A stretch of DNA of 26,296 bases from a virus, in the IMG/VR virus record IMGVR_UViG_3300049216_000644, positions 1 to 26,296 of that record. One strand, given 5' to 3'. The position numbers were made by a program, and so were the translations under genes. Position 1 is the first letter of the stretch, and the number at the start of each line of letters is the position of its first letter. Below the pieces are notes generated by a model, which saw only the letters and a program-made list of their open reading frames with translations, was not told the origin of the DNA and searched no databases. This document shows positions 8,490-24,792 of the stretch, piece by piece.

Positions 8490-8511
8490 GCCGTCAGGTT
8501 TTTGGGGGGGC

Positions 8512-8633
8512 GAGAGCCCCCTCCACCGCTTCGCGGTCCCCCTCCCCCAAGGGGGGAGGAGAGCGAAAGGCACGGCGTCGAATCTCCTCCCCCACAGGGG
8601 GAGGGGGACCCCGCAGGGGTGGAGGGGGCTCTC
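8512..8633. repeat. 122-bp palindrome of two inverted GC-rich repeat units
   Basis: Arms 8512-8561 and 8584-8633 are inverted copies of a 50-bp unit, identical over GAGAGCCCCCTCCACC and GGTCCCCCTCCCCC and differing in two short loop regions. Each unit also folds on itself. Together they make a strong RNA hairpin between the protease and capsid genes. The unit resembles REP-type intergenic repeats of Caulobacterales genomes. It could protect capsid mRNA or partly terminate transcription. The 230-base gap holds no gene. Confidence 0.8.
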
Positions 8634-8719
8634 GCCGCCGCCGCCACCCATCCATTTTTCACCACCTCTCGCGGTCCACGCGGCCGCTTCGCCATGCCCC
8701 GACAGAAGGAGCATCCCCG

Positions 8720-15490: not shown

Positions 15491-15497
15491 AGGGGCC

Positions 15498-15583
15498 GTC
15501 ATCCCGGAAGCCGCGCAAGCGGCTGTCCGGGACCTCGCTGACGCCAAGTCCTGAACGAGATCCCGGCTCGAGGCCGGGATGAC
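15498..15583. repeat. Nested palindromic repeat (GTCATCCCGG type)
   Basis: GTCATCCCGG (15498-15507) pairs with CCGGGATGAC (15574-15583). Inside are two further hairpins: AGCCGC/GCGGCT at 15510-15525, and TCCCGGC/GCCGGGA at 15561-15579. This is a common alphaproteobacterial intergenic repeat. It fills the gap before the DUF2163 gene, and the G-run just after it is the only ribosome-site-like sequence for that gene. Confidence 0.75.
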
Positions 15584-15594
15584 GGGGGTTGTAG

Positions 15595-16485
15595 ATGAAG
15601 ACGCCGATCGACAACGGGACGCCCGGGGCGACCCTCGCGCTGCTGAACGGCGGCCAGGATTTCCAGATGGCCGACCTGTGGGCGATCACGCTCAATGGCG
15701 GGACGGTGATCCGCTGGCACGGCGCCGGGGTCAGCGCGCCGCTGAACTTCGCCGGCCACACCTATCTCGCGGGACCTGGGCTCGACCGGGGCAAGATCAG
15801 CACCAAGCTGGGGCTGGAGGTGGCCACCCTGGACGTGAAGGTCTCGGCCGGCGCCGGCGACCTGATCAACGGCGCGCCGCTGATCCCGTTCGCGCAGGGC
15901 CGCGGGTTCGACGGGGCGACGGTGGTGCTCTACCGCGCGTTCCTGCCGTCGTGGGCGCCGCCCTACGCCGTCACCGGGGCGGTGATCGCCTTCTCGGGAC
16001 GGGTGACGCAGCTGAAGAGCCTCGCCCGGTCCGGTTTCACCCTCACGGTTTCGGCCTGGACGGTGCTGCTCAACGTCAGCATGGGCCCGGACGTGTTCCA
16101 GGCCGGGTGCCTCAACACCCACTACGACGCCGACTGCGGCCTCTCGCCCACCAACGTCTCGGGGACCGTGACCAACACGTCGGCCCCGTCCACGGTGGGT
16201 TTCACCAGCAACCTCACCAATCCCGACCACTATTTCGACAAGGGCACGGTGACCTTCACCTCCGGGGCGAACGCGGGGATTTCGCGGGCGGTGCAGGGCT
16301 CGACCCACGCCAACGGCGCGTTCGGCTTCGCGTTCGGCTTCCCGGAGGCGCCGGCGGTGGGCGATGCGTTCAACGCGGTGCGCGGCTGCCTGCTGACCAT
16401 GGCCGACTGCACGGCGCAGGGGAATTTGATCCGCTTCCGCGGCCAGCCGTTCACGCCGCCGGCGATTTCGGGGGCGGGGGTATGA
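15595..16485 (+). CDS. DUF2163 tail protein (GTA gp13-like)
   Basis: A 296-residue baseplate hub protein. The N-terminal part includes MADLWAITLNGGTVIRWHGA and DRGKISTKLGLEVATLDVKV, and the middle includes LYRAFLPSWAPPYAVTGAVI with FSGRVTQLKSLARSGFTLTV, all typical of DUF2163. The C-terminus carries the Cys-rich BR0599-like end with VFQAGCLNTHYDADCG and CLLTMADCTAQGNLIRFRGQ. These Cys may bind an iron-sulphur cluster as in related tail hubs. The ATG lies just after a palindromic repeat, and the stop overlaps the next start (ATGA). Confidence 0.9.
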   Translation: MKTPIDNGTPGATLALLNGGQDFQMADLWAITLNGGTVIRWHGAGVSAPLNFAGHTYLAGPGLDRGKISTKLGLEVATLDVKVSAGAGDLINGAPLIPFAQGRGFDGATVVLYRAFLPSWAPPYAVTGAVIAFSGRVTQLKSLARSGFTLTVSAWTVLLNVSMGPDVFQAGCLNTHYDADCGLSPTNVSGTVTNTSAPSTVGFTSNLTNPDHYFDKGTVTFTSGANAGISRAVQGSTHANGAFGFAFGFPEAPAVGDAFNAVRGCLLTMADCTAQGNLIRFRGQPFTPPAISGAGV

Positions 16486-17087
16486 AGGCGTTTTCTGTCC
16501 ACGAACCTCACGAAAGACACGAACAAGAGGGTGCGGCGCCACGTCCCGGCGCGCAGCGCCCTTCAGATGTCGCGGCTTCGCCGCAAGAAGCTCCGGCCAG
16601 CACCGAACCCGTTCGCGAGGTTCGTGAGGTTCGTGGACCATCTTCCTTGGCGGAGGCGCAAGGCCGCGCCGCCGTGGTCGCCGAGGCGCGGACCTGGCTG
16701 CGGACGCCCTGGGCGCACCGGCAGAAGGTCAAGGGCGTCGGCGTGGACTGCGCCCAGTTCCCGCTGGCGGTCTACCAGGCGTGCGGCCTGGTGGAGGCGT
16801 TCGACACCGGCGACTATCCGCGCGACTGGCACATCCACCGCGACCAGGAGCGGTTCGCGCCGATCGTCGAGCGGTTCGCGCGGGAGATCACGCACGCCGA
16901 GGTGAAGCCGGGGGATCTGGTGCTGTGCAAGATCGGCCGGGTGTTCAGCCACGGGGTGATCGTGCTGGACTGGCCGCTGGGCGTCCATGCCGCCGTCAAC
17001 GAGCGGATGGTGACGCTGTGCGATCTGAGCCAGGATGTGGGCCTGATCGGCGGACCCAGACGCTATTTTACGCTGCGGAACTGGTGA
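16482..17087 (+). CDS. NlpC/P60 tail peptidase with repeat-encoded N-terminus
   Basis: A 201-residue cysteine peptidase that probably cuts peptidoglycan cross-links during DNA entry (GTA gp14 equivalent). The enzyme domain runs from about residue 56. Cys90 lies in KGVGVDCAQF, His157 in VFSHGVIV, and His169 in GVHAAVNE is the third polar residue. The first 55 residues are unusual. They are encoded by a palindromic element (16497-16638) and read VHEPHERHE at one arm and VREVREVRG at the other. ATG 16482 overlaps the upstream stop. If the extension is not translated, TTG 16647 or GTG 16674 could be the real start, but neither has a convincing ribosome site. Related proteins are about 150 residues. 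Confidence 0.85.
   Translation: MKAFSVHEPHERHEQEGAAPRPGAQRPSDVAASPQEAPASTEPVREVREVRGPSSLAEAQGRAAVVAEARTWLRTPWAHRQKVKGVGVDCAQFPLAVYQACGLVEAFDTGDYPRDWHIHRDQERFAPIVERFAREITHAEVKPGDLVLCKIGRVFSHGVIVLDWPLGVHAAVNERMVTLCDLSQDVGLIGGPRRYFTLRNW
16497..16638. repeat. Palindromic element inside the NlpC/P60 frame
   Basis: GTCCACGAACCTCACGAA (16497-16514) is perfectly inverted at 16621-16638 (18 of 18). Pairing continues imperfectly inward, and the core holds a GCGGCTTCGCCGC-type hairpin near 16571-16583. The reading frame stays open through all 142 bp. Confidence 0.85.
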
Positions 17088-24112: not shown

Positions 24113-24562
24113 ATGACCACACCCGATCTCATCGCCGATCTGCGGCGCGATGAGGGATTGCGGCTGGCCGCCTATCCCGATCCGCTGACCGGCGCCGCGC
24201 CCTGGACCATCGGCTATGGCCACACCGGGGCGGAGGTGCGCGCCGGGCTGGCGTGGACCGAGGGCCAGGCCGAGGCGGCGCTGGCGGACGATGTGGCTGG
24301 GGTTCTGCGCGCGCTGGACCGGCGGCTGCCCTGGTGGCGGCGGCTGGACGATGCGCGGCAGGACGTGCTGGCGAACATGGCCTTCAACATGGGCGTCGCC
24401 GCCCTGGAGGGCTTCGCCCACACCCTGACCTTCATCCACAACGGCGACTGGGCGCGGGCGGCCGAGGCGATGCTGGACAGCGCCTGGGCGCGCCAGGTGG
24501 GCGCCCGCGCGCGCCGGCTGGCCGAGCAGATGCGCACGGGCGCGCGGCCTCCCTCCCCTTGA
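24113..24562 (+). CDS. Endolysin, T4-type lysozyme (GH24)
   Basis: A 149-residue muramidase that cleaves the glycan backbone of peptidoglycan. The catalytic triad is visible: Glu14 in RRDEGLRL, Asp23 in YPDPLTG, and Thr32 in WTIGYGHT. The helical second lobe contains DVLANMAFNMGVAALEGFAH. No signal or SAR segment is present, so a holin must release it. GAGG lies 5 bases before the ATG. The last residues (RPPSP) and the stop codon are encoded by a 67-bp repeat that begins at 24544, so the native C-terminus may have been replaced. Confidence 0.92.
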   Translation: MTTPDLIADLRRDEGLRLAAYPDPLTGAAPWTIGYGHTGAEVRAGLAWTEGQAEAALADDVAGVLRALDRRLPWWRRLDDARQDVLANMAFNMGVAALEGFAHTLTFIHNGDWARAAEAMLDSAWARQVGARARRLAEQMRTGARPPSP

Positions 24563-24677
24563 TGGGGAGGGATGTCGTCGCGAAGCGGCGACAGGGTGGG
24601 GAAGTCTGAGGCGGCCTCCCTCCCCTTGATGGGGAGGGATGTCGTCGCGAAGCGGCGACAGGGTAGGGAAGTCTGAG
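24544..24677. repeat. Two tandem 67-bp repeat copies
   Basis: Copies at 24544-24610 and 24611-24677 differ at one visible base (GGGTGGGG versus GGGTAGGG). Each has hairpins CCCTCCCC/GGGGAGGG and GTCG/CGAC around a CGCGAAGCG core. The first copy includes the endolysin stop codon. Confidence 0.85.
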
Positions 24678-24723
24678 GACACCCACCGCCTTCCCGAGAG
24701 CATCGTGGCTGTGTCGGACAGCC

Positions 24724-24775
24724 CCACCCTGTCGCTGCTCCGCAGCGACTGTCCCTCCCCATGAAGGGGAGGGAG
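24724..24775. repeat. Third, inverted copy of the 67-bp repeat
   Basis: The reverse complement of 24724-24775 reads like the repeat unit above (TCCCTCCCCTT, then GGGGAGGGA, then GCGACAGGGTGGGG), with changes in the loop. Together with the tandem pair it can fold into a large inverted structure between endolysin and holin. No gene lies in 24563-24792. Confidence 0.75.
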
Positions 24776-24792
24776 GACTCGGAGACATCCCG

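Follow-up and report, generated by a model that had tools for sequence, protein, structure and literature searches.

A miniature palindromic element lies in frame at the start of a phage tail peptidase gene and has ends of the same kind as GxxExxY gene units

The window analysed here (26,296 bp, an IMG/VR virus record) contains a hub-type tail gene followed by the gene of an NlpC/P60-like tail peptidase, at whose 5' end a palindromic element is inserted. The features of the locus are as follows (positions are those of the window).

15595-16485, + strand: upstream tail gene, a Phage_phiJL001_Gp84_N / BR0599 hub-type protein (Pfam PF09931 and PF09356)
16482-16485, + strand: ATGA start/stop overlap that couples the hub gene and the peptidase gene (upstream stop TGA at 16483-16485)
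16485-16649, + strand: inserted palindromic element, 165 bp, 55 codons (2-56), in frame; ends accurate to within a few bases
16497-16514, + strand: left arm, exact over 18 bp, GTCCACGAACCTCACGAA, with an imperfect extension to 16524
16548-16560, + strand: short internal hairpin, GGCGCGCAGCGCC; the identical 13-mer lies inside the family copies L050 and L169
16572-16584, + strand: second internal hairpin sequence, GCGGCTTCGCCGC, which forms no separate helix in the minimum-energy fold
16621-16638, + strand: right arm, exact complement, TTCGTGAGGTTCGTGGAC, with an imperfect extension from 16611
16647-16649, + strand: TTG that could serve as an alternative start, on the right-hand boundary of the element; a second alternative, GTG, lies at 16674
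16650-17087, + strand: NlpC/P60-like tail peptidase domain (partial TIGR02219 match, PHROG tail family, alignment, and Foldseek)

The insert begins directly after the coupling ATGA, an overlap that is also found in the chromosomal orthologue L111, and the open reading frame (16482-17087, 201 aa) reads through the palindrome. Among viral contigs, the closest relatives of the window protein (L004 and L005) share 71% identity with it, align only from residue 58 onward, and have N-termini without the extension (MTSIEAQRAAVVAEAMTWL), as do three chromosomal orthologues (MSQVQRAAVVAEALSWL in L111, MSAAMREAVVAEAMSWL in L112, and MNTAARQAVVAEALSWL in L113). All five begin directly at the peptidase domain (MTSIEAQRAAVVAEA in two, MSQVQRAAVVAEA, MSAAMREAVVAEA, and MNTAARQAVVAEA in the others), and the window protein, aligned with them, reads M-[KAFSVHEPHERHEQ...VREVREVRGPSSL]-AEAQGRAAVVAEARTWL, so the window carries about 165 bp more (16485-16649). 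The preliminary description of this DNA had proposed that a palindrome was inserted in frame ahead of the catalytic domain and that alignment with homologues would reveal it; both the open frame and the absence of the extension from all five orthologues bear this out. The codon usage of the insert is foreign: GC3 is 0.52 across the extension, compared with 0.93 for the remainder of the gene and 0.95 for the gene upstream. No clear target duplication was found at the insert, for which the best empty sites are too diverged, and neither transposition nor excision was seen. The in-frame state alone is not evidence of selection, because a random insertion preserves the reading frame one time in three and the insert can be read without stops in two of its three forward frames.

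The palindrome had been described as an exact 18-bp inverted repeat bounding a 142-bp element of about 47 residues. The exact repeat was recovered at 16497-16514/16621-16638, and its arms are longer than expected by chance: when the window was simulated 60 times under a first-order Markov model, perfect inverted repeats within 200 bp reached at most 15 bp. Arm pairing extends to 28 nt at 86% (16497-16524/16611-16638). The figure of 142 bp stands for the arm-to-arm span; the outer AAGG...GTC / GAC...CTT ends are also part of the insert, which makes the foreign segment larger, about 165 bp or 55 codons. The palindrome region folds strongly as DNA (z = -4.27) and also as RNA, and an Rfam search of the window found no RNA families. 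A BLAST search of the element against plasmids returned chance-like partial matches only, and an 18-mer search of viral sequences gave two matches, both in phage genes and both due to chance.

Judged by its arms, the phage insert is a member of a dispersed family of miniature elements with (CACGAANNN)n arms: the inverted CACGAANNN-unit arms with about 80-120 bp between them that define the family are found in the window element. Among the viral contigs searched, 22 stretches carried the pattern of two inverted-order CACGAANNNCACGAA arms. The tighter pattern, with the CCT spacer of the window element, was found in three stretches of genome contigs, one in a Caulobacteraceae MAG and two in the Proteobacteria MAG SZAS-4. 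The general pattern was present in 23 of the 199 genomes surveyed from the bacterial family of G001 (Caulobacteraceae by MAG title), with at most 37 copies per genome, and a reversed control pattern gave no match in the same 199 genomes. The spacer letters (NNN) were characteristic of each genome. We then read 67 distinct chromosomal copies from this bacterial family in context, retrieved by a search that demanded the CACGAANNN arms and left the outer TTTrrC free; both sides had the outer end consensus TTTrrC|CACGAA, with TTTrrC present in most copies. Short, GC-rich internal hairpins, which the window element has as GGCGCGCAGCGCC and GCGGCTTCGCCGC, were enriched in the family: at least one internal stem of 5 or more was found in 49/67 copies, compared with 35% of shuffled cores. 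The outer ends in the window (left, TTTTCTGTC; right, GATGGTC) partially match the TTTrrC that precedes CACGAA in the family, this AT-rich outer end being weakly conserved in the phage copy. The interior of that copy matches no other copy closely, and the nearest ones align only loosely across the whole length.

Inspection by eye found no copy clearly inside a gene among the 67 chromosomal and 17 distinct viral copies, which makes the start-codon position of the phage copy an exception; open reading frames spanning the other copies, chromosomal and viral, were judged by eye to look non-coding or to start past the element. A comparison of flanks among loci found no empty chromosomal site, and all shared sites were occupied. 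Some copies lie at orthologous sites (flank identity 71-82%) with arms that are spelled differently yet still pair. As a side observation, at four sets of orthologous intergenic sites (L148/L164, L159/L163/L176, L144/L160, and L146/L155) the spacer letters have changed in both arms with pairing kept, a pattern that may reflect arms evolving in concert or with compensating changes.

Ends of the same kind bracket genes of the GxxExxY (PDDEXK_3) family (TIGR04256, PF13366). In the flanks of PF13366 genes (loci L061-L110 and L181-L207), a significant inverted repeat spanned the GxxExxY gene at 40/47 loci from the G001 family and 22/26 loci from a phylum-wide sample, compared with 0/30 control loci of NlpC type; significance was assessed by per-locus shuffles, a mismatched-pair null being inflated by loci with common ends. 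The ends of these units repeat at lag 9 (and also at lag 10 in the phylum sample), vary in sequence among units (CACGAA, CACGGA, CACAGA, CGCAGA, and others), and in some units (L062 and L086) contain a hairpin within each end. The nearest unit to the window element is L087, where ends nearly those of the window (GTCCACGAACCACACGAAAAGCACGAAC...TTCGTGGAC) frame a GxxExxY gene, named so by NCBIfam, whose reading frame encodes MVHEPHEKHERF; its protein reads VHEPHEKHE from the left end, and this start (MVHEPHEKHE) matches the phage peptide SVHEPHERHE. The phage element differs from such units in having no gene. At one orthologous intergenic site, a miniature copy in G133 (L166) corresponds to a GxxExxY unit in G085 (L086), with arms that differ. 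The element and PF13366 also co-occurred (19/23 versus 45/176 genomes; p = 1.6e-7, related genomes being counted as independent). A nuclease role of the GxxExxY protein is suggested by the Pfam family name PDDEXK_3. Separately, at what is apparently the same site in related genomes (L065, L066, and L067), the ends of the GxxExxY unit are spelled differently (CACGAAAAA versus CACGAACGG), so the ends appear to change with lineage.

Miniature inverted-repeat elements (MITEs) normally derive from insertion sequences that carry a transposase. The present family resembles them in being short, dispersed, bounded by terminal inverted repeats, and without a gene. Ends of its kind lie around GxxExxY genes, with L087 as the nearest case, and these units are putatively autonomous. 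The family differs in that its proposed partner belongs to PDDEXK_3, a putative mobiliser, and in that no clear target duplication was seen at the diverged empty sites. QMITE1 and QMITE2 of Coxiella are MITEs of this general kind, that is, short, non-autonomous and dispersed sequences with terminal inverted repeats, which occasionally form in-frame fusions at gene ends (PMC5896051).

Taken together, the insert is probably a MITE-like derivative of GxxExxY units that went into a host-associated phage with the frame kept. It would be a miniature, non-coding mobile palindrome composed of inverted ends of 9-bp CACGAANNN units and short internal hairpins, with no gene, and most likely an internally deleted relative of a GxxExxY unit that is mobilised in trans. 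Its derivation from such a unit is suggested because ends of the same kind bracket GxxExxY genes in related bacteria, and the MITE-like, trans-mobilised reading because its anatomy, ends only and no gene, is combined with that shared kind of ends; movement would thus be driven by GxxExxY proteins. The element may have entered the phage genome from a Caulobacterales-type host, probably while the phage was a prophage. By landing right after the coupled start codon, it would have kept both the upstream stop and the downstream frame, and read-through would be easy because the arms repeat every 9 bp and contain no stop codon. The outcome would be a disordered N-terminal tail of about 55 residues on an otherwise intact NlpC/P60 peptidase.

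The main challenge to GxxExxY-driven movement is that another transposase (RAYT/Y1 or an insertion sequence) moves the palindromes, with GxxExxY genes being passengers that live in or insert into the repeats. To our knowledge, transposition activity has never been demonstrated for a GxxExxY protein, which counts for this alternative, and element-rich genomes without PF13366 exist: in the 14 element-bearing genomes in which PF13366 genes were sought, matches were found in 11 and none in G141, G133, and G110, where the partner may have been lost, the assemblies may be incomplete, or another enzyme may act. A precedent is given by REPINs, paired inverted repeats that form hairpins, are mainly extragenic, and are thought to be moved in trans by a separate single-copy gene, the RAYT transposase being the candidate (PMC3116915). 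The present family is similar in its paired inverted hairpin repeats, mainly extragenic location, and candidate trans-acting gene, but its arms are 9-bp-periodic repeats, unlike the 16-bp REP units of REPINs, and a RAYT-type match is absent from 12 of the 14 element-bearing genomes. The Y1_Tnp family (PF01797) was thus found in 2/14 of these genomes, compared with 11/14 for PF13366, and the ends sit tightly around GxxExxY genes despite divergent end sequences. On balance, we regard movement by another transposase as unlikely, though a serious competitor. In the literature searched, which was covered partially, we found no description of an association between GxxExxY genes and repeats. We tentatively propose, as a generalization that could well prove wrong, that GxxExxY genes make up a widespread type of mobile unit, apparently not yet described, with 9-bp-periodic inverted ends, whose gene-less miniatures spread in bacteria and phages and can add translatable tails to proteins as the 9-bp period keeps the frame open. 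The wider interest is that the repeat ends tie dispersed bacterial palindromes to GxxExxY genes, a link that yields a testable hypothesis for both the mover of the repeats and the role of the nuclease-like protein.

Whether the tail is made depends on the start codon. The window protein resembles phage NlpC/P60 peptidases (TIGR02219) in its tail operon position, conserved Cys and His, and predicted fold, and differs in its 55-residue N-terminal extension and in a score under the cut-off (residues 65-151, 40.4 bits, below the curated 81.9 bits); PHROG 329, a tail family, was also matched, and no Pfam match was found for the peptidase at E 0.001. Cys90, His157, and His169 are invariant in the four aligned proteins. 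In an AlphaFold model built from an alignment of four sequences (mean pLDDT 59), residues 1-53 lack secondary structure and have pLDDT below 50, helix formation begins at residue 55, and the best Foldseek matches of the predicted fold are NlpC/P60 structures. The roughly 55 added residues, of which EQEGAAPRPGAQRPSDVAASPQEAPASTEPVR is an example peptide, are thus predicted to be disordered ahead of an intact NlpC/P60 fold, and the tail is expected to be tolerated because it is disordered and both the domain fold and the conserved residues are intact, in line with the earlier suggestion that the peptide could be tolerated ahead of the catalytic domain. An alternative accepts the insertion and starts the protein at TTG 16647 or GTG 16674, leaving the element as an untranslated 5' leader hairpin. 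A protein begun at the TTG, which lies on the right-hand boundary of the insert, would read MAEAQGRAAVVAEA, near the N-termini of the orthologues; the GC3 of the extension is unlike that of the surrounding coding sequence, and the element folds strongly. Against this, TTG is used more rarely as a start, the window retains the coupled ATGA seen in L111, and predicted Shine-Dalgarno pairing is -8.6 kcal/mol for ATG 16482 compared with -3.0 for TTG 16647 and -3.3 for GTG 16674. Translation from ATG 16482 is therefore the start that these features favour, and one past 16638 appears less likely because of its weaker pairing and the retained overlap; overall, we consider an untranslated leader rather improbable. 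The preliminary description had made its reading depend on a start upstream of 16638, and this holds in part: downstream starts are available, but Shine-Dalgarno pairing points to ATG 16482.

Rickettsia provides the best-documented cases of in-frame coding palindromes; here another repeat family arrives at that outcome in a structural gene of a phage, whose orthologues lack the insert. The Rickettsia palindromic elements (RPE; Ogata 2000) measure about 150 bp, enter protein genes in frame, and are apparently tolerated there (PMC10969869). The window element is alike in producing this outcome in one gene, but the kinship drawn in the preliminary description is not supported: the element belongs to a different, CACGAANNN-arm family that is essentially intergenic in the chromosomes examined, it lies here in a phage, and ends of its kind are shared with GxxExxY units. 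It was not classed as an RPE because the habit of frequent in-gene insertion genome-wide is missing (0/67 copies clearly intragenic, by inspection), so it is set apart by habit. A true Rickettsia-type family, with coding palindromes routinely in frame and encoding a conserved peptide, would account for the similar size, in-frame position, disordered peptide, and mostly stop-free frames of the arms; it is nevertheless very improbable given that intergenic habit, and no conserved element-encoded peptide was found. It is scarcely credible that the phage evolved the palindrome locally as a regulatory or terminator hairpin, with no insertion at all. That reading suits the strong DNA and RNA fold, but the five orthologues that lack the palindrome contradict it, and the foreign codon usage and the same-family members elsewhere count against it.

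The element is not the sole palindrome in the window, and three others differ from it in sequence. The first, at 8506-8639, is a different, GC-rich palindromic repeat with a 57-nt inverted repeat that is 88% complementary (GGGGGCGAGAGCCCCCTCCACCGC...). At 24543-24781, another repeat type combines nested inverted repeats with a 67-nt tandem duplication (24544-24610/24611-24677, 99% identical). The third, a palindrome at 15496-15585 (GTCATCCCGG...CCGGGATGAC), lies in the 15491-15594 gap that separates two tail genes.
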